Assembly: GCA_024278975.1 (NCBI GenBank)
Contig: JAJRSD010000061.1
Coordinates: forward strand, 62,001 to 126,000
Source of the DNA: Bacteroidota bacterium
GTDB taxonomy: Bacteria; Bacteroidota; Bacteroidia; Bacteroidales; Prolixibacteraceae
DNA: 64,000 nt
Reading direction: 5' to 3'
Shown: in pieces, positions 38,804-63,214 of the stretch
Layout of the letters: each line of letters opens with the position of its first letter
Position numbering within the stretch: position 1 is the stretch's first letter
Translations under genes and position numbers: made by a program
Notes under the pieces: generated by a model
Databases searched by the model: none
What the model was told of the DNA's origin: nothing
The model's input: the letters and a program-made list of their open reading frames with translations, nothing else

Positions 38804-39441
38804 ATGGATAAAATCAATCAGTTAGCAGAACGCTACAATCAGTTGGATTTTCTAAAACCGGAGATTGAAAAAGCTTCAGAAGCAATTATTAATTCATACT
38901 CGAAAGGGGGTAAATTACTTGTTTGCGGAAATGGGGGAAGTGCCGCCGATGCCGACCACATTGTGGGCGAATTGATGAAAAGTTTTGAGCGGAAACGCCC
39001 GGTTAATCAAAATTAAAATCCGCTTTGGAAGATGTTGATGCATCGAGAGGAGAATATCTTGCCGGGAATTTACAACAGGGTTTGCCTGCCATTTCTCTAA
39101 ATGCACATTCGGGATTAATCTCGGCAGTTGCCAACGATATTGATGCTGATGTTGTTTATGCACAGCAAGTTACAGGCTACGGAAACAGTGGTGATATTTT
39201 AATTGGAATTAGTACTTCGGGCAACTCGCAAAATGTTATTGATGCGCTAATTGTAGCCAAAGCAAAAGGGCTGATTACCATCGGACTTTCCGGTAAGACA
39301 GGAGGAAAAATGAAAGCATACTGCGATTTTCTGATAAATGTTCTGGAAACAAGAACTGCTTATGTACAAGAATTGCATCTGCCTGTTTATCACACCATTT
39401 GCATGGTGGTTGAGGATTATTTCTTTCACCCAAAAAAGTGA
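38804..39441 (+). pseudogene. SIS-domain phosphosugar isomerase (GmhA-like), single-base frameshift
   Basis: The first 70 codons (38804-39016) encode the start of a SIS domain with LLVCGNGGSAADADHIVGEL. The rest (to 39441) continues in another frame with DASRGEYLAGNLQQGLPAIS, GYGNSGDILIGISTSGNSQNVIDA and HLPVYHTICMVVEDYFF. Restoring one T in AATTAAAA near 39013 would give a continuous protein of about 212 residues, the normal length of sedoheptulose-7-phosphate-isomerase-like SIS proteins. Either the gene is inactive or the base is missing from the assembly. Next to a ROK kinase it probably isomerises the phosphorylated sugar. Confidence 0.82.
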
Positions 39442-39476
39442 TTTTTCAAATAGTAAAACAAATAAAAACCTATAAA

Positions 39477-44480: not shown

Positions 44481-45806
44481 ATGAAAATCATATTTCTTTT
44501 TATATCGCTATTAATTTTTGTTTCGTGCAGCGCACAGCAGAAATTTTTACAGACAGAGCTATTCCCTTCGCAAGAGGAGCATGCACACGGTGCAACCATT
44601 GTTGAACTTGCCAACGGCGATATGCTGGCAGCATGGTTTCAGGGACACGGCGAAAGATGGGCCGACGATGTCAGGATTATGGGAGCTCGATTACATAAAG
44701 GAGAAACAGAATGGAGCAAACCGTTTCTAATGGCCGATGTCCCGGATTTTCCCGATATTAATCCGGTGCTTTTTATCGACAACCGCGAAACTCTCTGGTT
44801 GGTTTGGTACACTGTAATTGCCAACCAATGGGAAACTTCGTTGCCGAGATATCGCATCAGCAATAACTATATGCAATCCGATGGTCCGCCCGAATGGGAG
44901 TGGCAGGATGTGATTATTTTTAAACCCGGCAACAAAACCGAGCGGGGAATTCAACCCGGCGATAAATTTGTAAAATCGGTTGTTGAACAGATGAAATCGA
45001 CAAGAAAACGGCTGCAAGACAGCGGAGCTTCCACAAAGCAGCTTATTAGGTTCGATGAGTTTGCTGCCGATATTATATTGAAAGCAAAAGGGGGAAATAT
45101 GGTAAAAAGGGGAAAGATTTATTCAGCCAACGCTGCCCCAAAAGATACGGTTCTGGGCTACCCTTATTTTAGACGACTGGGATGGCAAAGCAAAAACAAA
45201 CCACTGCAACTCGGCAACAGAATTATATTCCCATTTTATTCCGACGGGCTAGAAATGTCGATAATGGCAATTACCGAAGATTATGGTAAAACCTGGAGTT
45301 TTAGCAACCCGCTGGTTGGGGTGGCAAATATTCAGGCAACTTTGGCAATAAAAAACGATGGGACAATTGCGGCATATATGCGCGACAACGGACCGCCACC
45401 ACAGTTGCACTATTACAGCGAATCGAAAGACAGAGGGAAAACCTGGAGTGATGTTACAGACTCTAAAGTAGTAAATCCCGGCTCCGGCTCCGATATAGTA
45501 ACCCTTGCAAATGGAAATTGGGTGCTTGCATATAACGATGCTGAAGATGGGCGATATTCACTTGCCGTTTCGCTGTCAGATGATGAAGGAAAAACATGGA
45601 AATACACCCGCCACATCGAACTCGACTTAAATAAAGATTTGGATAAAAGAGACAAATTTTCGTACCCTTCCATCATTCAGGGAAACGACGGAATGATACA
45701 TGTAGTTTATAGTTTGCATAAATACAACACTTTGCCACACGACGACGATACAATAAAATACATCCGCTTTTCGGAAGAGTGGGTTAAAGAGGGAGATAAA
45801 CAATAG
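44481..45806 (+). CDS. Asp-box (BNR) beta-propeller lipoprotein, sialidase-like, copy 1
   Basis: This 441-residue lipoprotein has lipobox VSCS (Cys14). It is a six-bladed propeller of the sialidase superfamily. Three Asp boxes are clear: TEDYGKTW, SKDRGKTW and SDDEGKTW. The N-terminal segment EEHAHGATIVELANGDMLAAW replaces the RIP motif of GH33 sialidases, so sialidase activity should not be assumed. Other members of this fold cleave rhamnose, glucuronate or other acidic linkages. It is paired with the FG-GAP gene 8 bp downstream; the same two families recur as a pair at 59216-62170. Confidence 0.82.
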   Translation: MKIIFLFISLLIFVSCSAQQKFLQTELFPSQEEHAHGATIVELANGDMLAAWFQGHGERWADDVRIMGARLHKGETEWSKPFLMADVPDFPDINPVLFIDNRETLWLVWYTVIANQWETSLPRYRISNNYMQSDGPPEWEWQDVIIFKPGNKTERGIQPGDKFVKSVVEQMKSTRKRLQDSGASTKQLIRFDEFAADIILKAKGGNMVKRGKIYSANAAPKDTVLGYPYFRRLGWQSKNKPLQLGNRIIFPFYSDGLEMSIMAITEDYGKTWSFSNPLVGVANIQATLAIKNDGTIAAYMRDNGPPPQLHYYSESKDRGKTWSDVTDSKVVNPGSGSDIVTLANGNWVLAYNDAEDGRYSLAVSLSDDEGKTWKYTRHIELDLNKDLDKRDKFSYPSIIQGNDGMIHVVYSLHKYNTLPHDDDTIKYIRFSEEWVKEGDKQ

Positions 45807-45814
45807 AGTATTTT

Positions 45815-47920
45815 ATGAGAACAACCGTAAAAATAGTCCTGTTACTTTTAATCGCCGTTATCCTATTCGGCTGTACGGAAAATAAAAAAAGCAGTACCGG
45901 AATTAATATCTATACCAGTGGCATTCATAAACTTGAGTATAATAATCAGGAGCTGTTAGTTGATTTAGATGCAGGGTTTAAAATTCTGCCAATGCCCATG
46001 GACTTTGACGGCGACGGCGATTACGACCTTGTTCTTTCCGAATCGGGAGCTTATGCCGAAGCAGGAATTTTCTATTTTGAAAATATCAGTGGAAATGTTG
46101 AGATGCCGGTTTTTCGCCGGGGAGCAAAAATATCGTACGAACGTCGCCGGCTCGGTTCCGACGGTGCCAATTTTGAAGTCTCTGTGGTCGGCAACCACAC
46201 TCATGTTCTCACCCCCGACAATGTAAGCGAAAGGTTGCTGATTTATAAGGATGTTCCGCAAAATGTTTTTTGGGATGACAACGAGTTAAAACTCACTGAA
46301 AAAGGGTACGACATTTTACACTTTCATAAAAATACGCAGTGGAAACTTGTTGATTTTGATGGCGACGGAATAAAAGACCTCGTATGCTCGGCAGTCAGTT
46401 CGCGCTCATCGCGACTTCGCGGAGCAGGTTCTAATGAACGCACAAAAAGATACGCCGGAGTTGACAAACATAGCAAGCTTGTTTTTCTGAAAAACACCGG
46501 CAGCAACGATAATCCGGTTTTCGGCGACCCGGTTGAGATAGTAAAAGAGAACGGCGAATCGCTGGCAAAAGGTCTGGCAATTAAACCAATGTTTGCCGAT
46601 TACGATAACGATGGAGACCTCGATTTTATTGGTATTGGCAAAGCGCAAAACGGTGAAACATTCGATGTTCCGTGGAAAAAGAGTTTCTTTATCTATTTCG
46701 AAAACATTGGAACCAAATCCGCTTATAAATTTTCTACCGGCAAAGTTATTACCGACGGTAAAATGCCTGTTATGATGGAGTCGCGGGCTACCATTCATAC
46801 CACAGCAATAGACTGGGATAAAGACGGATTTACAGATATTATTGCCGGCGACGAAGGTGGCAGAGTTGCCCTGCTAAAAAATACCGGGAAAATTGTTGAC
46901 GGTGTTCCGCAGTTTCTTCAGCCGCGTAATTTTCAGCAAAAGGCAAAATATGTCGATTTCGGCGCGTTGACCACACCCCGCGTTTTCGACTGGGACGGTG
47001 ACGGACTGGATGATATAATAAGCGGAAACGGAATAGGAAATATTGGCTTTTTTAAGAACCTCGGCGGCGATATTCCCAAATGGGCTGCCCCAGAATATAT
47101 AGAATTCGGTGGAGAAATCAGAATTATCCCCGATGAAGCACTCCCAAATACCGAAGAGCCAAAATGGGGATACACAACAATTGATGTGGGTTTCTGGAAC
47201 GAAGATAATTTACCCGATATTTTGGTAAACGACCACAACGGAAATGTGATTTGGCTCGAAAATACCGGAACGCGAACCAGCCCAAAACTTGCAGCGCCAA
47301 AACCAATTTTGGTTGAATGGAACGGAGAGTCACAAAAACCTGAGTGGATACCCGGAGTTTCCACTGGTAATGAACTGCTTGCACCCTGGCGGACTTCGCC
47401 ATTTATTATGGACTTTAACAACGATGGGTTGAACGACCTTGTAATACTAGATTACGAAGGATATCTCTCGGTTTACACACGATTCAAAAAAGAGGAAAAA
47501 CTGTTTCTGAATCCTCCCGAAAGAAATTTTGTATATCTTTCGGGCGAACCAATTTTACTTAATCAACGTACCGGGTCGAGTAGTGGTCGGCTAAAAATCA
47601 CCTTTGCCGACTGGGACGGAGACGGATTAAAAGACCTTGTTTTTTCATCGAAACCGGCTGTTGACTGGATGAAAAACATGGGAATAAAAAACGGGAAAAT
47701 GGTTTTGCAATATATGGGACGCGTGGTTTCGAGAACTCTGATGGGGCACACCGACGGGCCTGTGGTTTCAGATTTCAATAACGACGGAATTTCCGATTTG
47801 TTGATAGGTACCGAAATTGGAGTATTTTTTTACTGGCAGCGCACAAGTTTCGATGTTACCACAACAATGACCACGAGCGGCAAACAAACTCCTGCAAACT
47901 ACAAATATTTTAAACGATAA
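45815..47920 (+). CDS. FG-GAP/VCBS-repeat propeller lipoprotein, copy 1
   Basis: This 701-residue lipoprotein has lipobox FGCT (Cys20). It is built from at least eight calcium-binding FG-GAP/VCBS motifs (DFDGDGDYD, DYDNDGDLD, DWDKDGFTD, DWDGDGLDD, DFNNDGLND and others). It has no recognisable CAZyme signature. The paralogue at 59216 aligns along the whole length, sharing KWGYTTI, the WRT-P segment and the EGYL strand. A conserved propeller always beside an Asp-box protein suggests a glycan-binding or uncharacterised lyase/hydrolase role on the cell surface. Confidence 0.8.
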   Translation: MRTTVKIVLLLLIAVILFGCTENKKSSTGINIYTSGIHKLEYNNQELLVDLDAGFKILPMPMDFDGDGDYDLVLSESGAYAEAGIFYFENISGNVEMPVFRRGAKISYERRRLGSDGANFEVSVVGNHTHVLTPDNVSERLLIYKDVPQNVFWDDNELKLTEKGYDILHFHKNTQWKLVDFDGDGIKDLVCSAVSSRSSRLRGAGSNERTKRYAGVDKHSKLVFLKNTGSNDNPVFGDPVEIVKENGESLAKGLAIKPMFADYDNDGDLDFIGIGKAQNGETFDVPWKKSFFIYFENIGTKSAYKFSTGKVITDGKMPVMMESRATIHTTAIDWDKDGFTDIIAGDEGGRVALLKNTGKIVDGVPQFLQPRNFQQKAKYVDFGALTTPRVFDWDGDGLDDIISGNGIGNIGFFKNLGGDIPKWAAPEYIEFGGEIRIIPDEALPNTEEPKWGYTTIDVGFWNEDNLPDILVNDHNGNVIWLENTGTRTSPKLAAPKPILVEWNGESQKPEWIPGVSTGNELLAPWRTSPFIMDFNNDGLNDLVILDYEGYLSVYTRFKKEEKLFLNPPERNFVYLSGEPILLNQRTGSSSGRLKITFADWDGDGLKDLVFSSKPAVDWMKNMGIKNGKMVLQYMGRVVSRTLMGHTDGPVVSDFNNDGISDLLIGTEIGVFFYWQRTSFDVTTTMTTSGKQTPANYKYFKR

Positions 47921-47938
47921 ACCATTACACTGACAATC

Positions 47939-48429
47939 ATGAAAATTACTATTCGAAATACATTTCTTATTCTGTCTGCCCTGTCTTTTCTGATAAACGG
48001 CAGTACCGCACAAAATAGTTTAACACAAGGAGGAATAATTTCGGTAGAACGTATCTGGGACCGCGCCGGTCACAACGCTTTTACATCACTGGTATATTTT
48101 AAAGGACGATTTTATTGCTCATTTCGTGAAGGAGGGAGTCATACCCCGCTTAATAAAAATGGGATTTTTATTAATGGCAGTATTCGGATATTAATGTCTG
48201 AAGATGGCGAAAACTGGAACCCGGTAGCTCACATTTTCAAAAAAGATATCGATTTGCGCGACCCGAAACTGTCGGTAACACCCGACAATAAAATAATGTT
48301 GCTGATGGGCGGTTCGGTATATGATAAAGATATTTTAAAATCGTCGATTTGACTAAAATAAATGATAATCCGGTTAAACTTCGATTTGTGATGAAAGATG
48401 CCGATTTATACAGCATCCGGTTTCAATAA
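47939..48429 (+). pseudogene. Gutted Asp-box (sialidase-like) gene: N-terminal third plus C-terminal tail
   Basis: The frame from ATG 47939 encodes a signal peptide and about 115 residues of an Asp-box propeller (RAGHNAFTSLVYFKGRFYCSFREGG, SEDGENW and RDPKLSVTPDNKIMLL), then stops at 48350. Directly after, another frame reads VDLTKINDNPVKLRF and VMKDADLYSIRFQ to TAA at 48427-48429, which looks like the C-terminal end of an exported glycoside hydrolase. The middle of a gene, or the junction of two genes, has been deleted. The product would be a non-functional fragment. Confidence 0.7.
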
Positions 48430-48461
48430 ATTGATTAGTTTTAATGTTTCAATAAAATAAT

Positions 48462-49571
48462 ATGGTTATGACTAAACTAAACGAACAAACCAACGAACGC
48501 CTGCTCTCGCTCGATTTTTTCAGGGGTCTCACTATGTTTCTGCTTATTGCAGAGTTCTCGCACCTTTTTAGCAACCTAACTGTTCCGCAACTCGAAGGCA
48601 CCTTTTTATATGCCATCGGTCAGCAATTCCACCACATGAAATGGGAAGGAATTCACTTTTGGGATTTAATCCAGCCTTTCTTTATGTTTATTGTTGGGGT
48701 TGCAATGCCCTTTTCGTTTGCCAACCGCATGAAAAAAGGGGCAACTTATAAACAGCTTTTTTCACACGCACTCGTTCGCTCGTTTTTGATGTTGTTTCTG
48801 GGTTGGGCACTCTATTGCATCGACCCCGGGAAAATTGTTTTCCGATTTCAAAATGTACTGGCACAACTTGGTGTAACCTATATTATAGCTTTTCTGATTA
48901 TGCGAAAATCACCAGTTATTCAGATTGCTTTTTCAGTATTGCTACTTCTTGTTAGCGAAGCCCTTTACCGCTTTTTCCCTGTCGAGGGTTTTACAAATGC
49001 TTTTGTTCCGGGAGAAAATTTTGGTGCCTGGTTCAACATCCTAATTGCAGGTAATGAGGACACCGGACACTGGGCAATGTTTAATGCAATTCCCACAGCA
49101 GCACATACAATCTGGGGTGTACTCGCCGGGCAACTGCTACTGAGTAAAAAATCGAATAAACAGAAGATGCAATATCTGCTAATTGCAGGAGTAACCGGGC
49201 TGGTTATCGGGTTTGGATTAAGTGGAGTTACCCCAATTATTAAACGTATTGCTACCGGTACATTTGTGTTTGCCAGCGGTGGATGGGCTCTTTTGGCACT
49301 CGCATTTTGTTACTGGCTAATCGACATAAAAAAATACCAGAAAGGAGTTTGGGTTTTTGCCCTCGTGGGAATGAATCCGCTCTTTATTTATCTGTTTGCA
49401 CACGTTGGCGGAGCCGGTTTAATTCGCAAAATTGTACTCCCCTTTTCAAATGCACTTTTTGGCTGGACCGGCGAAATTTCTGCAAATATAATCCTGAGCA
49501 GTTTCGTTCTATTTTTCCTTTGGTACATTGTTTACTTCCTCTATAAAAAGAAAATATTTATTCGAATATAA
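48462..49571 (+). CDS. HGSNAT-like transmembrane acyltransferase (DUF5009), copy 2
   Basis: This 369-residue membrane protein is a paralogue of the one at 43206. It shares the RLLSLDFFRGLTMFLL start and the HHMKWEGIHFWDLIQPFFMFIVGVAMPF motif near residues 55-82, plus the PLFIYLFAHVGG segment near 305. About ten membrane segments are visible. An alternative ATG lies two codons downstream. Its stop overlaps the ATG of the DUF1349 gene (TAATG), so the two are coupled. Confidence 0.82.
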   Translation: MVMTKLNEQTNERLLSLDFFRGLTMFLLIAEFSHLFSNLTVPQLEGTFLYAIGQQFHHMKWEGIHFWDLIQPFFMFIVGVAMPFSFANRMKKGATYKQLFSHALVRSFLMLFLGWALYCIDPGKIVFRFQNVLAQLGVTYIIAFLIMRKSPVIQIAFSVLLLLVSEALYRFFPVEGFTNAFVPGENFGAWFNILIAGNEDTGHWAMFNAIPTAAHTIWGVLAGQLLLSKKSNKQKMQYLLIAGVTGLVIGFGLSGVTPIIKRIATGTFVFASGGWALLALAFCYWLIDIKKYQKGVWVFALVGMNPLFIYLFAHVGGAGLIRKIVLPFSNALFGWTGEISANIILSSFVLFFLWYIVYFLYKKKIFIRI

Positions 49572-50155
49572 TGGCAAAATATTTTGAACTAACAGATTTT
49601 AAGTGGATTAATAAACCCGATAATTTTAATATTAGTGGTAACAATCTCACAATAGACCCCAAGTCGGAAACCGATTTGTGGCAACGTACCTATTACGGTT
49701 TTCGTAACGATAATGCACCCATGTTTGTAACCGAAATTGAAGGCGATTTTACATTCACGGTAAAAGCTGCTTTCGACTATAAAAACCAATACGACCAGTG
49801 CGGAATTGTATTGTACGACAACAACGAAAACTGGGTAAAAGTATCGGTTGAACAGGAAAACGAAACCTTTGCCCGGCTGGGGTCGGTGGTAACAAAATCA
49901 GGATATTCCGATTGGGCAACAACCGATATCGGTGCCGAAGTTTATGAAATGTGGTATTGTTTAAGTAGAAGAGGACAAGATTATTACATTGAATATTCAA
50001 CCGATGGGAAACTGTTTAAACAGATGCGAATGTTGCACTTTCCGGGAACAGAAGCACGGGTGGGCGTTTACGCCTGTTCTCCCGTAAAAGCTGGTTTTAA
50101 GGCTACCTTTTCAGAGTTTAAATTTGAAGATTGTCGCTGGCAATCTCATAAGTAA
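49571..50155 (+). CDS. DUF1349 concanavalin A-like domain protein
   Basis: This 194-residue protein has no signal peptide and consists of one jelly-roll domain of the DUF1349 family. Marks are DLWQRTYYGFRNDNAP near residue 36, the DFTFTVKAAFDYKNQYDQCGIVLYD strand pair near 58, and the VGVYACSP segment near 165. The family is related to concanavalin A-like lectins and is often found in sugar catabolism loci. No activity is established. It starts inside the stop codon of the preceding acyltransferase gene. Confidence 0.85.
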   Translation: MAKYFELTDFKWINKPDNFNISGNNLTIDPKSETDLWQRTYYGFRNDNAPMFVTEIEGDFTFTVKAAFDYKNQYDQCGIVLYDNNENWVKVSVEQENETFARLGSVVTKSGYSDWATTDIGAEVYEMWYCLSRRGQDYYIEYSTDGKLFKQMRMLHFPGTEARVGVYACSPVKAGFKATFSEFKFEDCRWQSHK

Positions 50156-50211
50156 TAAAAAATGATTTTAACCATAATATTGGGTATACGACAAATTCTC
50201 ATTTAAAGAGA

Positions 50212-50308
50212 TATTGCACACAGATGACGCTGATTAAGCTGATTTGCACAGATTATTCAACTCTTAAATCAGCGACTATCCGTTACATCAGCCTTATCAG
50301 CGTGCAAT
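50212..50308. repeat. Imperfect inverted repeat upstream of GH2
   Basis: The left arm at 50212-50242 includes ATTGCAC and GCTGATTAAGCTGAT. The right arm at 50287-50308 is close to its reverse complement (ATCAGCCTTATCAGCGTGCAAT). The repeated GCTGAT/CACAGAT words resemble interspersed intergenic repeats of Bacteroidota. No coding sequence lies between the arms. It may be a REP/MITE-type element or a transcript-folding site. Confidence 0.5.
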
Positions 50309-50359
50309 TTTTAATGATTAGGAATTTTGCTGTACACTCGTCATAACTTTATAAAAGAT

Positions 50360-53161: not shown

Positions 53162-53797
53162 TAAAATATTTGAATTAAAGTTACTACTCAGCAGGTTTTA
53201 GAGTATTTATTATCAATAGTCCCAACTTTTCCCAAAGGGATTTTTATGGAAAGTCTTGTGTTGAGAAATTGTATAATAGCCTTCTATGTTACAATTTCCC
53301 GCCTTGATAAAACAAAAAATGATGGCGTATCCAATGGCTCATTTTATAATTTAATTGTATTACAAAATACCTGATTCAAAAAAAATGCAATAATCTAAAA
53401 CTTGTGGCAATTTAACAGTCATACAGTTGTTGGAGAAATAAAGTCAATAGGATTGTATAGATGATTACACTTTTTAAAGCCTGAGTTTTGATAACTATCG
53501 GAGTAAAATAACGTATTACATGGGTAACGATAAATGAAGCGTTAAATATTGCCCAATTTTATGATTTTTTAACTCATAGTTAATATTCAATGTAAAATCA
53601 ACAAAATATAAGAAGTAAAAATAATTTATTAAATATAATTTTATAGCGTGTAAAATAGTTACTAAATTAAAACTTACCTGCCTATGTTGAAAAAATCGTT
53701 TTTAAAATTTATTAAATCAGGAACGTCTCAGTTCCATAAAATTTTGAATAATTTTTAATTAAATCACTACAGTTTTGTTCGATTAACAAATTTACTT
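53162..53797. other. 636-bp intergenic region upstream of susC
   Basis: No gene is seen. The region is AT-rich and probably carries the susC promoter and a long leader. TATGTTG at 53683-53689 is an imperfect -7 box. A small hairpin (GGAAC-GTCTCA-GTTCC) lies at 53720-53735, inside the likely leader. No exact TAnnTTTG box and no sigma or antisense RNA signal could be assigned with confidence. Confidence 0.45.
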
Positions 53798-56700
53798 ATG
53801 AAAAAAAAGACAACGCTAAAGTTTTTGTTTCAGGAGCGCACCATGCTCTTGGCAAAGTTATTATTGGTTGGGATCTTTGTTATTTCTCAACTGGGGGCGA
53901 TGGCCCAGCAAAAAACCATTACAGGTACAGTAGTTGGCGATGACGGTGCACCTATTCCGGGTGTAGCAATTATCGTTAAAGGAACAACTACCGGTTCTGT
54001 TACCGACATTGATGGAAATTATACCATTCCGAATGTTCCCGACGGTGCAACCCTTGTTGCCTCCTTTGTTGGGATGAAATCGCAGGAAATTGTTGTGGGC
54101 AACCAAACAACAATTGGTTTTACTATGGCTGTTGATGCTATTGGTTTGGAGGAGGTAGTTGCCATTGGTTATGGTACTTCGCGAAAAGAAGACCTTACCG
54201 GGGCAATTGTAAATGTGAAAGCTGAGGAGCTTATTAAGTATCAGCCTGCAAATGTTCAGGAACTACTTCGTTCTGCGGTACCGGGGCTGAAAGTTGGTTA
54301 CAGTACAAGTGCTAAAAACACCCCGGAATTTCAAATCCGTGGCGACAACACAATTAAATCAAGCGGTTCGGCAGAAGTTGCCGCAAATCGGCCACTTATT
54401 GTACTCGATGGAGTTATTTTTAACGGTGATTTAGCAGAAATAAATGTGAACGACATTGAAAGTATCGATGTACTAAAAGATGCAAGTGCTGCGTCAATTT
54501 ATGGTTCGCGTGCATCAAATGGTGTAATTGTTTTTACTACTAAAAAAGGAGTATTGGGAAAACCTGTTGTTAGGGCAAGTGCAAAGTTAGGTGTTGTAAC
54601 CGGAGCAAAACGAATCAGTAGCTTTAAAGCCGGCGACGAAGTAATGGGATGGTTGACTGACATGAATGAGTCTATTAACAGCCTGACATTGGATCCTTGG
54701 TCAAAATATGAAAAATATGAAAACGTTCCTTCGGAATATCAGTCTGATTGGTTATCAGCAAATGGAATACCCGGAGAAACCGATCCTAATGTAATTACCG
54801 GTGCCTGGCTCGATGCTTTTGGCTTTGAGCAGAACGAGAAAGAAAATTATTTGGCAGGTAACGAATATGACTGGCAAGACTGGTTGTTTCAAACCGGGTT
54901 ACGACAAGATTATGATGTAAGTGTTTCTGGTCGTACAGATAAAGTATCGTATTACTGGTCGGTAGGGTACATCAATAACGAATCGGTTCAGGTTGACGAT
55001 AAGTTTTCAACGTTAACTTCACGTTTAAATCTCGATGTTGCAGTAACCGATTTTTTCAACTTGGGAATAAACGCCAACTTCGCATATCAGGACGAGGGAG
55101 ACCAACCAATTAGCAATGGTGGTTATTATACAGCTTCGCCTTACGATATGCCTTGGGAGAATGGTATGCCACAAATAAGAGAAAATTTAAAAACAGCGGG
55201 AGCTGGTTCGAACAGAAGTAACCCGTTTCTTAATCCAGCATACACAACCAGGAAATACGACAGGTATAAATTACTTCCTACCATGTATGCCATATTAAAA
55301 CTTCCTTATGGCTTTACTTTTACCTCGAGAATGACAACACGTCTCGACTTTAGAAAAAGATTTTATTACGAAGATAGTGCTAACCCATGGTGGGGTCATG
55401 GTGGATATGTAACAAGAAGGCATAACCAGACATTCGAATGGCAATCGGATAATATTTTAGCATGGAGTAAGGAATTTGGCGAACACCGATTCGAATTCAC
55501 CGGACTGGTAAATGCGGAGAAAAATAAAAACTGGTACACTCGTGCAGGAGGTTCAAACTTCTCGCCAACCGAGGCACTCGGATATCATGCTTTGGCTTTT
55601 GCCCTTGTACCATCAGTCGATTCATACGATGAAGTAGTAACAAGAAATGCCCTGATGGCACGTATTAATTACGCTTTTTCAAATCGTTATAATCTTTCAG
55701 CATCAATAAGGCGCGACGGTTACTCTCGCTTTGGAACAGATAATCTTTATGCAACTTTTCCTTCTCTTTCGGCAGCATGGACAATTACCAACGAAGCTTT
55801 TATGGCAGGAAGAAAAGATTGGCTTACTTTCCTGAAACTTCGTGTAAGTTGGGGAGTTAACGGAAACAGTAGTGGTATTGGCTCGTATGCAGCTTATGCA
55901 ACTTTAAGCGATAACAAATACCTCAACTACGACAATGGTTACTTCGTAGCTCCTTACTTATACATTAACAGAATGGCCAACCCGGGACTTTCATGGGAGA
56001 AAAATGATGCTTTTAACTTTGCCTTAGATTATGGTTTCTGGGATGGGCGATTAAGAGGTTCGTTAGATATTTATTCTTCGCAAACAACCGATTTGCTCTT
56101 GAATAAAAAACTTCCTATTGTTACCGGATTCAACGACATTACAACTAATGTTGGTAATTTGAAGAATACGGGATTCGATTTGGGAATCAACACCATCAAT
56201 TTACAGGGTTCAGATCTTATCTGGACAAGTAGCCTGAATTTTTCGTACAACAAGAATAAAATTGTTTCGCTTACCGGAGAGTTGGTCGAACTGACCGATG
56301 AAAATGGCAATATATACATGGGCGAGCAAGATGACATTGACAACGGATGGTTTATTGGCGAAAACAAAAATATAATCTGGGATTACGAATCGGATGGTGT
56401 TTATCAGGTAGAAGAGGCTGCTGAAGCAGCAAAATATAACCTTTATCCTGGCGATTTCAGGGTAGTCGATCAAAATAACGATGGCGTGCTGAACTCAAAG
56501 GATAAAGTATTTCAGGGATTAACTCAACCTCCATGGTACATAACTTTCAGGAACGACCTTGAATACAAAGGATTCGATATGGGAGTTGTATTTTTGGCTA
56601 AACTGGGTTACTACGGAGGAACAACATACCCTTTCAATAACCGTCAGGAATACATTAAAAACCATAACTGGTATAATATGGAATACTGGACTCCAAATAA

Positions 56701-56965
56701 TCCGACTAACGATGCTGCAAGAATTAACTCAATTAATGTAGCAAATATGACAATTTGGAAATCAAGATCATACCTGCGTTTCCAAAACTTTTCTCTGGGA
56801 TACACTATTCCAACCGATGTATTGGAATCGATTAAAGTAAGTCGTGCCCGTATTTCATTTAATATCGACAATGTTGGTGTATTGACAAAATGGGATGAGG
56901 GTGATCCAGAATCGATGAGAGAGATGCCACGAACTTATTCCTTTAGTGTGGACTTTTCATTCTAA
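53798..56965 (+). CDS. SusC-family TonB-dependent outer-membrane glycan importer
   Basis: This 1055-residue receptor has a signal peptide (about 1-36) and a carboxypeptidase-regulatory-like domain (about 39-115, GTVVGDDGAPIPGVAIIVKGT and TDIDGNYTIPNVP). The TonB box region EEVVAIGYGTSRKEDLTGAI, the plug (VLDGVIFNGDLAEINVNDIESIDVLKDASAASIYGSRASNGVI) and a 22-strand barrel ending in FSVDFSF follow. There is no N-terminal STN domain, so it is not expected to signal through the FecR/ECF pair at 31.7-33.4 kb. With SusD it imports oligosaccharides of the locus. Confidence 0.96.
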   Translation: MKKKTTLKFLFQERTMLLAKLLLVGIFVISQLGAMAQQKTITGTVVGDDGAPIPGVAIIVKGTTTGSVTDIDGNYTIPNVPDGATLVASFVGMKSQEIVVGNQTTIGFTMAVDAIGLEEVVAIGYGTSRKEDLTGAIVNVKAEELIKYQPANVQELLRSAVPGLKVGYSTSAKNTPEFQIRGDNTIKSSGSAEVAANRPLIVLDGVIFNGDLAEINVNDIESIDVLKDASAASIYGSRASNGVIVFTTKKGVLGKPVVRASAKLGVVTGAKRISSFKAGDEVMGWLTDMNESINSLTLDPWSKYEKYENVPSEYQSDWLSANGIPGETDPNVITGAWLDAFGFEQNEKENYLAGNEYDWQDWLFQTGLRQDYDVSVSGRTDKVSYYWSVGYINNESVQVDDKFSTLTSRLNLDVAVTDFFNLGINANFAYQDEGDQPISNGGYYTASPYDMPWENGMPQIRENLKTAGAGSNRSNPFLNPAYTTRKYDRYKLLPTMYAILKLPYGFTFTSRMTTRLDFRKRFYYEDSANPWWGHGGYVTRRHNQTFEWQSDNILAWSKEFGEHRFEFTGLVNAEKNKNWYTRAGGSNFSPTEALGYHALAFALVPSVDSYDEVVTRNALMARINYAFSNRYNLSASIRRDGYSRFGTDNLYATFPSLSAAWTITNEAFMAGRKDWLTFLKLRVSWGVNGNSSGIGSYAAYATLSDNKYLNYDNGYFVAPYLYINRMANPGLSWEKNDAFNFALDYGFWDGRLRGSLDIYSSQTTDLLLNKKLPIVTGFNDITTNVGNLKNTGFDLGINTINLQGSDLIWTSSLNFSYNKNKIVSLTGELVELTDENGNIYMGEQDDIDNGWFIGENKNIIWDYESDGVYQVEEAAEAAKYNLYPGDFRVVDQNNDGVLNSKDKVFQGLTQPPWYITFRNDLEYKGFDMGVVFLAKLGYYGGTTYPFNNRQEYIKNHNWYNMEYWTPNNPTNDAARINSINVANMTIWKSRSYLRFQNFSLGYTIPTDVLESIKVSRARISFNIDNVGVLTKWDEGDPESMREMPRTYSFSVDFSF

Positions 56966-57017
56966 TAAGAAGCTAAGTTTATAAATTAATAGATTCTTAA
57001 CTGAAAAATTAATAATA

Positions 57018-59027
57018 ATGAAAAAAATAAAAAATATAACAGGGTTGGTATTAATCATCTTACTGACCTTTACAATTTCTTGTAATGATGACTTTTTGAT
57101 AGAAAAGCCATTATCAACTTTAAGTCCTGAAAATACGTTTATCGATGCAGCCGGATTACAAACAGCATTAGACGCTGCATTGAAAGGAGTATTTAACCAA
57201 TGGAATGGAGACAATGAAGAGTTGTTATTTAATCATAACATGAGTGATGCATCTGTTGTAAGTGCGACTGACAAACCAGATGCTTTTGTTGACTTGAGGA
57301 GATATGCAACACCTCAAAACTCAAGAGATAATGATGCCGGCCGTACCCGATCGTTTTACGAAGAAAACTACAAACAGATTAAAAGTTGCAACACAGTAAT
57401 AGATTATATTGACATTCCTGAATGGGAAGGCGGAGATAACGATGCTGACCGGAATCACCTTTTGGGAAGTGCTTATTTCTTACGTGCATTTTTCTATATG
57501 CAATTAACTATGGACTTTGGAAATGTTGCATTCCCGTTAAATGTTGTTTCTGAGGCAAGGCAAGATTTTAAAGTGTTTTATCAGCAAGGCATTTGGAAAC
57601 AGATGATTACTGATTTAGAGTATGCTGTTAAATGGATGAAGCCAAAAAGTCAATTGCCGAGAGGACAGGCAACAAAAGATGCCGCGAGAATGTTGCTCGC
57701 TAAGTTTTATATGCTGGATGAAAAATTTCCGGATGCCGAGAATTTAATGTCAGAAATGATTCTCGACCCTGAGTCTAGGCTGTTTACTGATGCCGATGTG
57801 GACAGAGATTTTGTCAGGGTTGGAAATAACCTGAATCCGTATGATGGAACATTGCTCGACGGTTTAGACTGCAATCAACCTGCCGATGCCATTAACCTGC
57901 TTCACATGGACGAAGGTGCCCAAAAAACCAGAAACCCAGAAGGTGTTTGGATGGTTGTGAACGAACCGTTTCTTGATGGAAGCCAAGGAAGGTCAGCATC
58001 AATACGTGCCTGGGGACCAAACTTTGTAAGTACCAATAAAGGGGTAAAAGCACCTCCTACAGGAACAAAAACTGGAATGGACATCGCCCAAAACTCCAGA
58101 TCGAAGCAGATGCATAAATGGGGTCGCGGACAAGGATTTGCTCGCGCAACAAACTATTCTCAATACGAAATTTGGAATTTTAAAGGAGAAATCGACAGAC
58201 AAGATTATCGCCATAAAAAAGGAAATTGGTTCGATATGGATATGTTAATTTACGATAATCCTGACCTTAAAGGAACCGAGTGGTACGGACAACCTGCCAG
58301 ACTATGGTACGGCGATGTACTTCTTTGCGAAGATTCAATACGTTGCTGGTTCGGATACCCGATGTATAAATTTTATGCTGCAAACCTCGAGTCTCAAATT
58401 AAGAGGCAAGACGGAGGAAAACGTGATATATATATCATGAGAGAAGCAGAAGCCTACCTGATTAGGGCAGAAGCAAGATTTTGGCAAGACAACTTCACCG
58501 GTGCTGCCGACGATATTAATATAATTCGCCAGCGTGCCAATGCCATTCATATGTACACCGCAGCCGATGTACAGGCAGAAGGCATTGGTGCAATTCTAGA
58601 CGAACGTTGTCGCGAACTTTATGGCGAAGAATATCGCCATGACGAAATGGTACGAATGTCAGTTATTTATGCTAAAACAGGAAAATCGTACAAAGGTCAC
58701 TCATATTCATTATCTGGTGACGATATAGAAAAATCACTCTCTGCTGGTAGTTTTTATTACGATAGAATGATGGAAAAAAATAATTTCTTCAGGGAAGAAG
58801 TTCCATGGTCAACCTATCCAACTACAAAATATACAATGGATCCGATGCATATTTTCTGGCCGGTTTACGAGCCTTATTTAATCGGGAATGTTAATAATGT
58901 TTTAAACCAGACTACCGGTTACGATGGTGCTGAAAAAAATGTAGAACCATTGACCCACGTTGTACAACCAGCCGGAAAACCAAACGTTGACCCAATGGAA
59001 GCCATTGGTGAACGGGGCGGAGAATAA
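57018..59027 (+). CDS. SusD-family glycan-binding lipoprotein
   Basis: This 669-residue surface lipoprotein has lipobox ISCN (Cys19) and starts FLIEKPLSTLSPENTF, the usual SusD N-terminal motif. TPR-like helices follow (LLGSAYFLRAFFYMQLTMDFGNV near residue 150, ATKDAARMLLAKFYML near 214), with the C-terminal RAEARFWQDNFTGAADDINIIRQRA and ILDERCRELYGEEYRHDEMVRM segments. It caps the SusC barrel. It is about 100 residues longer than typical SusD proteins, with insertions in the binding region. It starts 52 bp after susC and ends at a strong terminator. Confidence 0.95.
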   Translation: MKKIKNITGLVLIILLTFTISCNDDFLIEKPLSTLSPENTFIDAAGLQTALDAALKGVFNQWNGDNEELLFNHNMSDASVVSATDKPDAFVDLRRYATPQNSRDNDAGRTRSFYEENYKQIKSCNTVIDYIDIPEWEGGDNDADRNHLLGSAYFLRAFFYMQLTMDFGNVAFPLNVVSEARQDFKVFYQQGIWKQMITDLEYAVKWMKPKSQLPRGQATKDAARMLLAKFYMLDEKFPDAENLMSEMILDPESRLFTDADVDRDFVRVGNNLNPYDGTLLDGLDCNQPADAINLLHMDEGAQKTRNPEGVWMVVNEPFLDGSQGRSASIRAWGPNFVSTNKGVKAPPTGTKTGMDIAQNSRSKQMHKWGRGQGFARATNYSQYEIWNFKGEIDRQDYRHKKGNWFDMDMLIYDNPDLKGTEWYGQPARLWYGDVLLCEDSIRCWFGYPMYKFYAANLESQIKRQDGGKRDIYIMREAEAYLIRAEARFWQDNFTGAADDINIIRQRANAIHMYTAADVQAEGIGAILDERCRELYGEEYRHDEMVRMSVIYAKTGKSYKGHSYSLSGDDIEKSLSAGSFYYDRMMEKNNFFREEVPWSTYPTTKYTMDPMHIFWPVYEPYLIGNVNNVLNQTTGYDGAEKNVEPLTHVVQPAGKPNVDPMEAIGERGGE

Positions 59028-59033
59028 AAACTT

Positions 59034-59071
59034 TTCTCATCTGATGCTTAAACATCAGATGAGAATTTTTT
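59034..59071 (+). terminator. Intrinsic terminator after susD
   Basis: A perfect 13-bp stem (TTCTCATCTGATG at 59034-59046 with its complement at 59053-59065), a 6-base loop and a T-run to 59071 follow the susD stop by 6 bp. Confidence 0.88.
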
Positions 59072-59140
59072 AATTCGGTATTAGTTAGTATTATAATATT
59101 CCTGTTGGAGTATTATTTTAGTTTGGTTAGTAAACAGTAA

Positions 59141-59172
59141 AGATGCCTGTTAACCGATAGGCATCTTTTTTT
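59141..59172 (+). terminator. Second intrinsic terminator, 44 bp before the FG-GAP gene
   Basis: An 8-bp stem (AGATGCCT at 59141-59148 with AGGCATCT at 59159-59166), a 10-base loop and a seven-T run. It could terminate read-through from susCD or act as an attenuator in the leader of the FG-GAP gene. Confidence 0.75.
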
Positions 59173-59215
59173 ATAAAATTTAATATTCATCTAACCCAAT
59201 CAAAATCAATAAAAA

Positions 59216-61138
59216 ATGAAAATCACTTTTATCTCTCTTATTATTGCTCTATTTTTTTCAGCTTGTAAAAGCGATAAAAATGAAACCGATACTTTAATCC
59301 GTATTGAATACAATAACCCGGAACTTACCGTAGATTTAGCCGTTGGACTTTGGGCATGGCCTTTACCGTACGATTACGACAAAGATGGTGACCTCGATTT
59401 GCTGGTAAGTTGCCCCGACAAACCCTACAATGGAATCTGGTTTTTCGAAAATCCCGGAGGCAGCAAAAATCCGGTATTCAAACCGGCAGTAAAAATTTCC
59501 GATGCAATAAAAAATATTCAGATTTCGTATGTAAACAACAAACCCAAAATACTTACGCCCTACGTTGAGTATTCAGATTTCTTTGCTTCGGGAAACTGGA
59601 AGCAGGATTCGATATATGATGATAAAAACTTCGACAAAGAGATAGTAAAAATACGTGCCGACCAATGGAAATACGTTGATTACGAAAACGATGGAGATAT
59701 TGATATAATTGTTGGACGTGGCGAGTGGGGCGATTATGGCTGGGACAATGCTTTCGATAGTCTCGGAAACTGGCAAAACGGACCACTACACGGTTATGTC
59801 TATTTAATCGAAAATGTAAACGACAAATACAATAAACCGGCTAGAATAAAAGCCGGTGGAGAAGATATTGACGTTTTCGGAATGCCAACACCAAACTTTG
59901 CCGATTTTGATAACGATGGTGACCTCGATTTGATATGCGGTGAATTTCTCGATGGGTTTAACTATTTCGAGAATATTGGAACCCGTGAAAAACCAGTTTA
60001 TGCAAATTCTCAGCGACTCTCAAATAATGGTGTCGAAATTTCGATGGATTTACAAATGATTACCCCAACTTCGGTTGACTGGGATGGTGACGGCGACATT
60101 GACCTGATTGTTGGCGACGAAGACGGAAGGGTTGCCTTTATCGAAAACATCGGAAATATTATTGAAGGAGTACCACAATTTAAGCAGCCGGAATACCTAA
60201 AACAGCAAGCTGAATTTGTAAAATTTGGGGCACTCGTTACCCCGGTTAGCGTTGATTGGGATAACGACGGCGATGAGGATATAGTTTGCGGAAGCTCTGC
60301 AGGATATGTCGGATTTATTGAAAATTTAAATGGAGAAAATCCCCCCAAATGGGCTGCCCCGGTAAAACTGAAAGCAGACGGTAAAACAATACGTTTTCAG
60401 GCCGGAATAAATGGTTCGATTCAAGGTACTGCCGAAGCAAAATGGGGATATACAACTATTAGTGTTGCCGATTGGGATGGCGATGGGCTGAATGATATAC
60501 TTGCCAACTCAATTTGGGGTAAAGTTGAATGGTTCAGAAATACCGGTTCAAAAAAATCTCCCGTATTAACTTTTATGGGTGGCGTAAATATCGACTGGGG
60601 AGCCGAGCCTGCTAAAAAACCGGAATGGAATTGGTGGAATCCGGAAAAGGGAAAATTTGTTACACAGTGGAGAACAACTCCGTATGCCATCGACTGGAAC
60701 AAAGATGGAATGACAGATTTAGTAATGCTCGACAACGAAGGATATCTGGCACTATTCCAACGATTTAATAAAAATGGAGAGCTATTTATTCATCCCGGAA
60801 GCCGATGTTTTATCGATGCTTCAACAGGAGAACCCCTTCGGTTAAACGATAGAGAAGCTGGACACAGTGGACGACGTAAGTTCTGTTTTACCGACTGGGA
60901 TAACGATGGTGACATAGATTTACTGGCAAACAGTAAAAATGTTGAACTATTTGAAAACATTGGAGAGAAGGATGGAACTATAATCCTTAAAAACAGGGGT
61001 AACATTCTTTCTACCAAGTTAGCAGGACACACAACAAGTCCGACAGTTGTTGATTGGAACAACAATGGTAAACCCGATCTGTTAATTGGAGCTGAAGACG
61101 GACATTTCTATTATTTACCAAACAATTTTAATAAATAA
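59216..61138 (+). CDS. FG-GAP/VCBS-repeat propeller lipoprotein, copy 2
   Basis: This 640-residue lipoprotein has lipobox SACK (Cys17). Nine calcium-type motifs are visible, among them DYDKDGDLD, DFDNDGDLD, DWDGDGDID, DWNKDGMTD and DWDNDGDID. It is a full-length paralogue of the protein at 45815: both start with a YNN-x-EL-x-VDL segment before the first motif and share KWGYTTI, an R-T-x-P-x-x-x-D segment, and GH-T-x-x-P-x-V-x-D near the end. It is followed 6 bp later by an Asp-box lipoprotein gene, repeating the pairing seen at 44.5-47.9 kb. Function is unknown. Confidence 0.82.
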   Translation: MKITFISLIIALFFSACKSDKNETDTLIRIEYNNPELTVDLAVGLWAWPLPYDYDKDGDLDLLVSCPDKPYNGIWFFENPGGSKNPVFKPAVKISDAIKNIQISYVNNKPKILTPYVEYSDFFASGNWKQDSIYDDKNFDKEIVKIRADQWKYVDYENDGDIDIIVGRGEWGDYGWDNAFDSLGNWQNGPLHGYVYLIENVNDKYNKPARIKAGGEDIDVFGMPTPNFADFDNDGDLDLICGEFLDGFNYFENIGTREKPVYANSQRLSNNGVEISMDLQMITPTSVDWDGDGDIDLIVGDEDGRVAFIENIGNIIEGVPQFKQPEYLKQQAEFVKFGALVTPVSVDWDNDGDEDIVCGSSAGYVGFIENLNGENPPKWAAPVKLKADGKTIRFQAGINGSIQGTAEAKWGYTTISVADWDGDGLNDILANSIWGKVEWFRNTGSKKSPVLTFMGGVNIDWGAEPAKKPEWNWWNPEKGKFVTQWRTTPYAIDWNKDGMTDLVMLDNEGYLALFQRFNKNGELFIHPGSRCFIDASTGEPLRLNDREAGHSGRRKFCFTDWDNDGDIDLLANSKNVELFENIGEKDGTIILKNRGNILSTKLAGHTTSPTVVDWNNNGKPDLLIGAEDGHFYYLPNNFNK

Positions 61139-61144
61139 ATATTT

Positions 61145-62170
61145 ATGAAAGCCTTATTATTTACAGGAATTTTAGCTCTTATTATTGGAGCATGTTCACA
61201 AAAACAGACGTTAGAAAATGTAAAGGTGGTCGAACTCTCTTCGGAGTTTATTTATACCGATGCTCCTTTCCCAAAATGTCATGCATCAACAATTATCGAA
61301 ACTGATAAAGGGCTGATGGCATCGTGGTTTGGCGGAACCAACGAAAAAAATAAAGATGTTTGCATCTATATTTCAACAAAAAAAAATAACAGTTGGAGTG
61401 CTCCGCAATTAGTTGCCGACGGAGTTATTAACGACTCTCTCCGTTATCCGTGCTGGAATCCTGTTCTTTTCAATAAGAATAATGGTGATATTGTTCTCTA
61501 TTATAAAGTTGGGCCAAGTCCGCGCGAATGGTGGGGTTTATATAAAACATCAACCGATAACGGACAGTCGTGGTCGGACGCAGTAAAAATTCCCAATAAC
61601 CTTTTGGGACCAATTAAAAATAAACCGGAGCAGTTGCAAAACGGAACAATTTTGTATCCCACAAGGTTCGAAACACGCAAAGCATGGACAGTTTATGTTG
61701 AAAAATCGGATGATGATTTAAAGAATTGGCAAAAAACAGATATTGATAATAATGGTTTTAATGCAATTCAGCCAACTATTCTTTTTTACGATGGCGGTAA
61801 AATTCAGATGCTTTGCCGCAGCAAAGAGCATAAAATTGTTGAAACATGGTCTGACGATAATGGAGATACATGGACTCCGCTGCAAGCCACTTCGCTGGTA
61901 AATAATAATTCAGGAATCGATGGTGTTACAACAGACACTAAACTGCAACTTTTAGTTTGTAATCCTATCGAAAAAGGGCGACACAAACTTTCGTTATTTG
62001 CATCGTACGATGGCAAAAACTGGAAGGAGCTGATTGTTTTGGAAAATCAGGGAAAGGGTACTGAATTTAGCTACCCGGCAATTATTGAAGGCAGCGATGG
62101 AACTATTTATATTACCTACACTTATAACCGGGAGAGAATAAAATTTGTTCACATAGAAGTTACCGAATAG
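61145..62170 (+). CDS. Asp-box (BNR) beta-propeller lipoprotein, sialidase-like, copy 2
   Basis: This 341-residue lipoprotein has lipobox IGACS (Cys17). It begins FPKCHASTIIETDKGLMASWFGG and carries Asp boxes STDNGQSW and SDDNGDTW. It is about 100 residues shorter than copy 1 but of the same family. There is no RIP motif, so the substrate may not be sialic acid. It could be a hydrolase for another acidic sugar. It lies between the FG-GAP protein and an aldolase of the DHDPS/N-acetylneuraminate lyase superfamily, which would suit a keto-acid sugar substrate. Confidence 0.82.
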   Translation: MKALLFTGILALIIGACSQKQTLENVKVVELSSEFIYTDAPFPKCHASTIIETDKGLMASWFGGTNEKNKDVCIYISTKKNNSWSAPQLVADGVINDSLRYPCWNPVLFNKNNGDIVLYYKVGPSPREWWGLYKTSTDNGQSWSDAVKIPNNLLGPIKNKPEQLQNGTILYPTRFETRKAWTVYVEKSDDDLKNWQKTDIDNNGFNAIQPTILFYDGGKIQMLCRSKEHKIVETWSDDNGDTWTPLQATSLVNNNSGIDGVTTDTKLQLLVCNPIEKGRHKLSLFASYDGKNWKELIVLENQGKGTEFSYPAIIEGSDGTIYITYTYNRERIKFVHIEVTE

Positions 62171-62287: not shown

Positions 62288-63214
62288 ATGAAAAAAAAAT
62301 TGGCAGCTCCGTTAAAAGGAATTATAGTACCGCTGGTTACACCCTTGATTGATAATAATACAATAGACATCGAGGGTTTTAAAAAATTGATTGAACATAC
62401 AATTTCCGGCGGAGTACACGGAATATTTGTGTTAGGAACTACCGGCGAATTTGCCAGCATCAGTTATAAATTGCGTGAAGAATTAATTGAACAAACCTGT
62501 AAAATTGTAAACGGAAGAGTACCTGTTCTTGTGGGAATTGCCGATTCATCTTTTCCAGAAAGTGTAAATTTAGCAAATAAAGCAGCAGAAAATGGTGCCG
62601 ATGCAGTTGTTTTAACACCTCCCTACTATTTTAGGTTGGGGCAAACAGAACTCTTAGAATATTTAAAACATATTATGAGTCAGATACCACTTCCGCTTTT
62701 CTTGTACAATATGCCGGCACAAACTAAAATTTCATTTGCCCCCGAAACGGTAAAGAAAATTAGCGAAATACCCGGAGTGGTTGGAATAAAAGATAGTTCG
62801 GCAGATTTACCATATTTTAAGCAGGTTCAATATGCATTAAAAGATAAAAAAGATTTTACATTTATGGTTGGTCCCGAGGAAATAATGTCCGATTTTGTTC
62901 TTGCCGGAGGACACGGTGGCGTAAACGGAGGAGCAAATATGTTTCCCAAATTATATGTTAATTTGTACAATGCATCTGTTAATCGCGATTTTGAAAAAAT
63001 TAAAGAGTTACAACAAAAAGTAATTCAAATAAGTAGTACAATTTATAAGGTTGGCAACTATAATTCAAGCTTTCTAAAAGGGGTAAAATGTGCTCTGTCG
63101 GTTATGGGAATTTGCAGCGATTTTATGGCAGAACCATTTCATCGGTTCAGAGAACCTGAGCGTATGAAGATTAAACAAATTCTGAAAGATTTAAATTATC
63201 AGGAATTATTATAA
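62288..63214 (+). CDS. DHDPS/N-acetylneuraminate lyase superfamily aldolase
   Basis: This 308-residue class I aldolase has GTTGE at residues 50-54, catalytic Tyr140 in LYNMP and Schiff-base Lys168 in GIKDSS. Members of this family split or join pyruvate with aldehydes: dihydrodipicolinate synthase, N-acetylneuraminate lyase and keto-deoxy-sugar aldolases. The locus setting (Asp-box propeller proteins upstream and an SSS symporter downstream) points to catabolism of a sialic-acid-like or keto-deoxy sugar rather than lysine synthesis. That is inference; the specificity residues are not diagnostic here. Confidence 0.85.
   Translation: MKKKLAAPLKGIIVPLVTPLIDNNTIDIEGFKKLIEHTISGGVHGIFVLGTTGEFASISYKLREELIEQTCKIVNGRVPVLVGIADSSFPESVNLANKAAENGADAVVLTPPYYFRLGQTELLEYLKHIMSQIPLPLFLYNMPAQTKISFAPETVKKISEIPGVVGIKDSSADLPYFKQVQYALKDKKDFTFMVGPEEIMSDFVLAGGHGGVNGGANMFPKLYVNLYNASVNRDFEKIKELQQKVIQISSTIYKVGNYNSSFLKGVKCALSVMGICSDFMAEPFHRFREPERMKIKQILKDLNYQELL

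Follow-up and report, generated by a model that had tools for sequence, protein, structure and literature searches.

What do the two pairs of neighbouring β-propeller genes in this stretch of Prolixibacteraceae DNA do together? The window (the whole 64,000-nucleotide stretch analysed; assembly GCA_024278975.1, contig JAJRSD010000061.1, positions 62,001 to 126,000) encodes two proteins of an FG-GAP/VCBS-type propeller family, FG1 and FG2, each beside an Asp-box protein, ASP1 and ASP2, respectively. An earlier note on this DNA had described the four genes as a duplicated, mirrored cassette and proposed a two-component surface enzyme or binding system. The analysis reported here identified FG and ASP as a real, recurrent pair and placed a DHDPS-type aldolase and an SSS-family symporter in the same recurring module, found in three phyla and providing the best clue to its activity. 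Our best guess is that the sugar handled is similar to 3-deoxy-D-manno-octulosonic acid (Kdo), with sialic acid and uronate routes as rivals.

Linkage and fusion of the two propeller families

All four open reading frames were present as the earlier note had placed them, in the reversed internal orders ASP1-FG1 and FG2-ASP2, with gaps of 8 bp and 6 bp, respectively. FG1 and FG2 aligned end to end, as had been claimed (38% identity over 675 aa, E 8e-132). ASP1 and ASP2 aligned over 183 aa (33% identity, E 2e-16) with a further N-terminal piece, and both matched Pfam BNR_2. The host genome (4.65 Mb, 115 contigs) held two FG-family places, FG1 and FG2, and three BNR_2 rows in two proteins, ASP1 and ASP2; by our own arithmetic, ~0.02 FG/BNR_2 pairs within 10 kb would be expected there by chance. 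The four proteins are putative lipoproteins, judged from lipobox-like N-termini read by eye (FFSAC, IIGAC, ILFGC and FVSC).

The description as a duplicated cassette, which implies a single duplication, did not survive the phylogenetic analysis. In a tree of 44 FG rows (42 different), FG1 formed a clade (support 100/100) with FG genes from two further Prolixibacteraceae genomes, to which it was 72% and 64% identical versus 42% to FG2, and FG2 was placed apart from it in the larger FG clade. A long-branch warning applied to the attachment point of the FG1 clade and not to the clade itself. A recent inverted duplication was rejected, FG1 and FG2 belonging to separate deep clades.

A scan of a genome collection with FG2 provided the best 80 of 101 confirmed loci (numbered with the prefix L), of which 79 had an FG reading frame (L056 did not). 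These loci spanned Bacteroidota, Planctomycetota and Verrucomicrobiota, with a few metagenome-assembled genomes (MAGs) labelled otherwise. Only 44 of the 80 reached 21 kb or more and many contigs were short, so absences are soft. An N-terminal FG part and a C-terminal ASP2-type Asp-box part were joined in one open reading frame in 11 of the 79 loci (867 to 1136 aa as called; L064 was cut by a contig end), and Pfam found both parts in the fused protein of L062. A separate Asp-box gene lay within 10 kb in a further 10 loci, bringing those with a partner to 21 of 79. The aldolase was found in 21 and the symporter in 27 of the 79. The gene order was DHDPS-SSS-ASP2-FG in three Prolixibacteraceae loci (L016, L090 and L091), ASP2-FG-DHDPS-SSS in a Planctomycetota MAG (L008) and SSS-DHDPS-ASP2-FG in an Opitutaceae MAG (L025); FG and ASP2 each also occurred beside the aldolase without the other. 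The first iteration of the ASP hidden Markov model drifted into the FG family through fused proteins, and was not used as an ASP tally but revealed the fusions.

Of 60 genomes sampled from the host's family, seven held 11 near-full-length FG loci. BNR_2 matches lay within 10 kb of six of these loci and within 20 kb of eight, the chance expectation being ~0.04 per locus (70 BNR_2 rows in ~36.5 Mb). One of the 11 FG copies (L087:8742-10532, contig G008:C56) had two stop codons inside the match.

A second sample was anchored on the aldolase alone: 80 genomes of the family of Rhodopirellula maiorica were searched with the DHDPS-type aldolase of that species, and 32 matched at E 1e-80. The 36 neighbourhoods examined were 32 of 34 rows (L062 and L008 were left out as already in the set) and four further aldolase copies. 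The open reading frame call included the aldolase in 34 of the 36, an FG-ASP fusion in four, FG alone in two and ASP alone in three. One of these fused proteins, that of L111, was 80% identical to that of L062.

The neighbourhood check suggested by the earlier note thus found co-occurrence recurring across genomes. FG and ASP are functionally linked: several genomes have their genes side by side, and the two are joined in one protein in 11 of 79 FG loci and 4 of 36 aldolase-picked regions. Of the proposed two-component system, it is this link that stood; obligatory pairing was rejected, as an Asp-box partner was missing from the fetched flanks of 58 of the 79 FG loci, in a set with many short contigs.

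Predicted folds and conserved residues of FG and ASP

Against Pfam and NCBIfam, only FG-GAP-type repeat models scored over cut-off with FG, and no known family was found for it by this route; to that extent the earlier opinion that FG falls in no recognised carbohydrate-active enzyme family holds. An AlphaFold2 model built with 68 rows was confident (pLDDT 92.6, pTM 0.90), and a reading of its DSSP assignment gave about ten four-stranded units. A DxDxDG-type motif was found by pattern in eight units, with a variant in a ninth near residue 155. Such calcium-type motifs are shared with VCBS/FG-GAP propellers (integrins, CRTAC1 and the PL11 rhamnogalacturonan lyases), from which FG differs in its ten blade-like units and in its structural distance. 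Among the 50 Foldseek matches listed, only partial propeller matches were found, the best by E being CRTAC1 (TMq 0.27) and the highest TMq being 0.44; a profile search of PDB sequences gave nothing significant (best E 0.1). With respect to PL11 (YesW/YesX), FG had no Pfam rhamnogalacturonan-lyase match and no PL11 protein was among those 50 matches, no direct alignment having been made.

Outside the calcium motifs, E302, Q330, E407, Y412, R486, R553 and H605 of FG were invariant in the 68 rows, down to 23% identity. From the alignment and the predicted strands, these residues would lie in loops of blades 5 to 10, either ahead of the first strand or linking the second to the third, on the propeller face that is the usual place of active sites. 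Conservation relative to the window proteins was 54-58% for FG, 46-53% for ASP2 and 46-52% for the aldolase, and FG was the highest of the three in 9 of 9 loci compared; the symporter was more conserved than FG in 5 of 8. FG is probably an enzyme rather than a binding module, and by a clear measure, because it has ten blade-like units in a confident model, no good PDB match among the matches listed and an invariant polar face. Elsewhere, an FG region was fused to a complete GH3 (L071:9992-14146), and a distant FG member to a BD-FAE-type alpha/beta-hydrolase, an esterase (L097:1795-4836).

For ASP, H46, D71, Q209, R225, R279, Y310 and K333 were invariant in 24 rows of the ASP1 and ASP2 types. 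In a HMMER profile alignment to NanB (best profile E 7e-14), the catalytic Glu was matched by Q209, an active-site Arg by R225 and the nucleophile Tyr by Y310, the NanB residues being taken to have these roles. A hand alignment of CHAST with RIP put His46 opposite the RIP Arg, in agreement with the earlier observation that the Asp-box proteins lack the GH33 RIP motif. The fused protein of R. maiorica at L062:4465-7464 was modelled with pLDDT 90.1 and pTM 0.76, and its Asp-box half superposed on the sialidase 1eur (TMt 0.73, rmsd 4.2). Like GH33 sialidases (1eur, NanB), ASP is thus predicted to have the six-bladed Asp-box fold, and it keeps an Arg in alignment with theirs and a Tyr at the nucleophile position; the sequence similarity is remote. 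It differs in having an invariant His at the first Arg of the triad and an invariant Gln at the catalytic Glu, which leaves neither the GH33 Arg triad nor the Tyr/Glu pair complete. On these predictions ASP would have the fold of GH33 but not its catalytic set, and we would not file it there. GH181, whose sialidase is described as a six-bladed propeller in PMC12018670, was considered by description only.

The Asp-box domain was also seen in other arrangements. The fused FG-ASP protein at L021:3778-6840 has a diverged Asp-box half from which conserved residues, among them the CHAST-type His, are gone, and its gene adjoins one of the ASP1 type. An ASP1-type domain is fused to a YdjC-type deacetylase at L020:12036-14177, L101:13699-15828 and L102:6860-9007.

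A candidate pathway and its rivals

The Schiff-base Lys and Tyr that the window aldolase shares with the class I aldolases NanA, DapA and YagE were present in 30 of 30 rows (28 distinct). It differs from them in that the DapA active-site Arg138 was found in 0 of the 30 rows and the position of Ser208 in N-acetylneuraminate lyase (NAL) was Gly in all 30, the roles of both residues being assumed here. The window protein scored below the curated cut-offs of all seven NCBIfam models listed, and the nanA equivalog (TIGR00683) gave 108.7 versus a cut-off of 382; identity as a true DapA or NanA was not supported. The nearest structure was 4xky, named 'Dihydrodipicolinate synthase' and presumably from Bacteroides thetaiotaomicron, and YagE, of the 2-keto-3-deoxygluconate (KDG) aldolase type, was among the PDB relatives. 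According to PMC13220900, the NAL-family lyases NanA and human NPL cleave Kdo.

The best PDB sequence match of the symporter was SiaT, the Na+/sialate symporter of Proteus mirabilis (5nv9, E 8e-73). As given in PMC5931594, the SiaT ligand set is Thr58, Ser60, Thr63, Gln82 and Arg135, of which Ser60 and Arg135 contact the sialate carboxylate. All 33 rows (32 distinct) had Ser60 and Arg135, with Ser or Thr at position 63; Thr58, by contrast, occurred in 0 of 33 and Gln82 was lost in the window protein, which therefore has the carboxylate ligands without the full set for N-acetylneuraminic acid (Neu5Ac). Because Thr58 and Gln82 are not kept, the substrate may be unlike Neu5Ac at its far end.

Pentose genes accompanied the module in relatives. 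A pentulose kinase was found in 7 of the 21 aldolase-bearing FG loci versus 1 of the 58 other FG loci, and in those seven it lay in a gene run with the aldolase and symporter, overlapping or almost touching its neighbours. The seven included R. maiorica (L062) and Blastopirellula marina (L014), the run in L014 being divergent from FG and 1.6 kb away. Four of the 36 aldolase-picked regions also had a kinase (~0.3 expected by chance, from 55 FGGY rows in 14 genomes), three of them with a FucI-like isomerase (L117, L119 and L137). All 12 kinases (the seven, that of L017 and these four) exceeded an NCBIfam threshold, either that of ribulokinase (PRK04123) or that of FGGY pentulose kinase (TIGR01315), and formed two subfamilies. 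The isomerase was found in L014, L034, L048 and L055, and in L017 with the kinase and without the aldolase; compared with PF02952, it scored over cut-off in L055 and just under in L017, and gave no match in L014. AraD was not found in the FG loci with kinases nor in the 36 aldolase-picked regions.

Because the relatives have an isomerase and a pentulose kinase in the gene run without AraD, the aldose released by the aldolase would most simply be a pentose. A pentose plus pyruvate makes a C8 acid, Kdo being the common one; if the aldose is a pentose, the acid would therefore be a C8 ulosonate such as Kdo. The set expected for Kdo (aldolase, pentose isomerase and pentulose kinase in one run) is present in relatives and not in the host locus, and the pentose step is assigned to the window locus by analogy with them. 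Elsewhere in its genome, the host carries a canonical gene of the FucI type, and five FGGY rows were found there.

Starting from the observed linkage and fusions and the predicted folds, we infer a substrate and a series of steps, and tentatively favour, at a little under an even chance, FG and ASP as two extracytoplasmic β-propeller proteins serving a single catabolic module that acts on an acidic 2-keto-3-deoxy sugar, most simply a Kdo-like one. A glycan would be captured at the surface by SusC/SusD. The ulosonic-acid residue would then be freed by two separate propellers, ASP with its altered catalytic residues and FG with a conserved pocket of its own; for FG, the role of a second enzyme is likelier than that of a binding module. 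The symporter would import the freed acid and the aldolase would split it into pyruvate and an aldose; Kdo would give pyruvate and D-arabinose, then D-ribulose and D-ribulose-5-phosphate. The more specific form of this proposal is somewhat unlikely to hold in every part: that FG-ASP is a two-propeller system releasing Kdo or a close C8 ulosonate, that FG is a new ten-bladed enzyme family, and that both serve an unrecognised bacterial pathway of Kdo scavenging with symporter, aldolase, isomerase and pentulose kinase in Bacteroidota, Planctomycetota and perhaps Verrucomicrobiota.

A number of findings weigh against the proposed Kdo-like module. None of ASP, aldolase or symporter was seen in 36 of the 79 FG loci, and the aldolase stood alone in 20 of the 36 aldolase-picked regions. 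The four fusions of the second sample represent fewer lineages, L110 being 94% identical to L062, and L121 and L122 96% identical to each other. Of the seven aldolase loci with a kinase, five come from a single genus, Algoriphagus. No locus of the host's family was seen with a kinase or isomerase beside FG, and the isomerase had no match in 7 of 7 Prolixibacteraceae genomes, host included, in a search run without a positive control. An ordinary arabinose pair, ribulokinase and AraD (L105), lies ~21 kb from FG on contig G010:C33 (L040/L092). Ordinary sialidase chemistry by ASP is doubtful, because Gln stands at the GH33 catalytic Glu and His replaces one Arg. The conservation of Ser60 and Arg135 in the symporter may say less about the substrate than it seems to, the comparison having covered these carriers without a control from SSS proteins with other substrates. 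Sulfatase-cluster genes, found in 22 FG loci (the L072 member was confirmed by Pfam and has a homologue in L062), would suit other glycans too, and the fusions of FG to GH3 or an esterase also fit a general accessory domain.

The last point leads to a different role for FG, that of a non-catalytic glycan-binding or scaffold propeller presenting substrate to various enzymes, ASP among them. This is a serious possibility, although well short of even: FG has had different fusion partners (ASP2 in 11 loci, GH3 in L071, the esterase, in a distant member, in L097), and VCBS-like propellers include tachylectin and integrins, as stated in PMC8023676. A scaffold would, on the other hand, hardly be expected to exceed ASP2 and the aldolase in conservation at every locus compared, to keep seven polar residues invariant, or to stand beside the aldolase without an Asp-box partner, as FG does in several loci. 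That the pairing is mere coincidence in gene-dense glycan loci could be argued from the many FG loci lacking a partner in the fetched flanks, but is most improbable; it is already contradicted by fusions in 15 loci reached from two different anchors, and the host search found just two FG and two BNR_2 proteins, each FG gene lying next to a BNR_2 gene.

Other acids would call for other assignments of the same proteins. With sialic acid (a nonulosonate of the Neu5Ac or 2-keto-3-deoxynononic acid type) as substrate, ASP would be a divergent sialidase, FG a helper or lectin, the aldolase a NanA-like lyase and the symporter a SiaT-like importer. The sialidase fold of ASP, SiaT as the nearest solved relative of the symporter and AGE-type epimerase genes in the host speak for this, as does a YhcH/DUF386 gene that follows FG2-ASP2-DHDPS-SSS in a close relative (L003), with homologues after FG-DHDPS in L046 and L079; the YhcH/DUF386 family includes the sialate anomerase NanQ. 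We nonetheless regard it as unlikely, given the changed GH33 Arg and Glu in ASP, the missing Thr58 and Gln82, the Gly at the NAL Ser208 position and the pentulose kinases in relatives' operons; moreover, the host had no DUF386 match and no NanE scored over cut-off in seven genomes. Slightly less likely still is a uronate module, in which ASP, FG or both would be polysaccharide lyases acting on uronic-acid glycans, the aldolase would be of the KDG type (C5/C6), and the isomerase and kinase would serve co-released pentoses. In ASP the invariant His, Tyr, Arg and Gln, and in FG the invariant Tyr, Arg and His together with an almost invariant Lys409, would be suitable for a lyase, and YagE among the aldolase's relatives, the common sulfatase neighbours and the arabinose-type kinase with AraD on one FG contig are consistent with it. 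Opposed to it are the fold and closest sequences of ASP, which are sialidases, and the lack of AraD in the FG loci with kinases; nor was a reductase for KDG or 4-deoxy-L-erythro-5-hexoseulose uronate, or a KDG kinase, noticed as a recurring neighbour among clusters named by eye.

Genomic surroundings and implications

The pairs lie in a polysaccharide utilisation locus, recognised by the SusC/SusD pair at 53798-59027 beside a GH2 gene, with GH38 and GH92 genes upstream. Two tandem terminator-like hairpins follow SusD (Table 1), and FG2-ASP2-DHDPS-SSS may thus form its own transcript; 32 such sites were found in the region versus 18.3 expected, by consensus scan only. The GH38 alpha-mannosidase is split over overlapping frames at 39438-42019, with its N-domain at 39438-40706 and its middle and C-domains at 40418-42019, which may reflect a frameshift, a pseudogene or an assembly error. 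NagX/DUF5009-like membrane proteins are encoded on both sides of ASP1-FG1, at 43206-44321 (DUF5009 match of 28.2 bits, cut-off 25) and at 48462-49571 (no Pfam match).

Table 1. Positions of the propeller genes and associated features in the window.
Feature	Position	Strand	Basis
AraC-type regulator; a homologue (454 bits) lies next to DHDPS-SSS-ASP2-FG in L016	34300..35151	+	Sequence comparison
ASP1, Asp-box (BNR_2) propeller protein, lipoprotein-like N-terminus	44481..45806	+	Pfam, ASP1/ASP2 alignment
FG1, propeller protein of the FG-GAP/VCBS type, in a deep paralogue clade that includes two further Prolixibacteraceae genomes	45815..47920	+	Pfam, alignment, tree
SusC-like TonB-dependent receptor (Plug, CarbopepD_reg_2), upstream of FG2	53798..56965	+	Domain scan
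SusD-family lipoprotein, upstream of FG2	57018..59027	+	Domain scan
Pair of tandem terminator-like hairpins separating SusD from FG2	59034-59065 and 59139-59168	+	Consensus scan
FG2, propeller protein of the FG-GAP/VCBS type with ten blade-like units, one predicted face carrying invariant polar residues	59216..61138	+	Pfam, alignment, model
ASP2, Asp-box propeller protein, six-bladed sialidase-like fold predicted from the model of a fused homologue, catalytic residues altered	61145..62170	+	Pfam, model, alignment
DHDPS/NAL-family class I aldolase, Schiff-base Lys and Tyr present, DapA Arg absent	62288..63214	+	Pfam/NCBIfam, alignment
SSS-family Na+ symporter, SiaT-like, running beyond the window (whole gene L086:242-1723)	63241..63999	+	NCBIfam, alignment

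Further protein families accompanied the propeller genes in other genomes. One of ~730-780 aa lies near FG or ASP genes (L016:11982-14252, with homologues in L090, L101, L020, L103, L006, L012 and L080), and the two members scanned (L016 and L090, 756-765 aa) had no Pfam match. Algoriphagus loci have a 392-393-aa FG neighbour (L048, L072), also without a Pfam match, and a DUF3748/PD40 protein between FG and the aldolase (L055:11923-13419, scanned in L055 only).

Among the open-access titles and abstract openings listed as matches, none named the FG family, its fusion to an Asp-box protein or a set of bacterial genes for Kdo catabolism, which is a weak absence. If the proposed Kdo-like module is correct, a widespread, uncharacterised propeller family would gain an activity and the sialidase fold a group with a changed catalytic set. 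Kdo-bearing glycans occur in bacterial lipopolysaccharide, plant rhamnogalacturonan II and algal walls, and their use by these bacteria would become a test with named proteins, for which the natural fusion protein offers a single-construct entry point. Even with another acid as the substrate, the fusions and the recurring importer and aldolase neighbours would tie two orphan families to one pathway.

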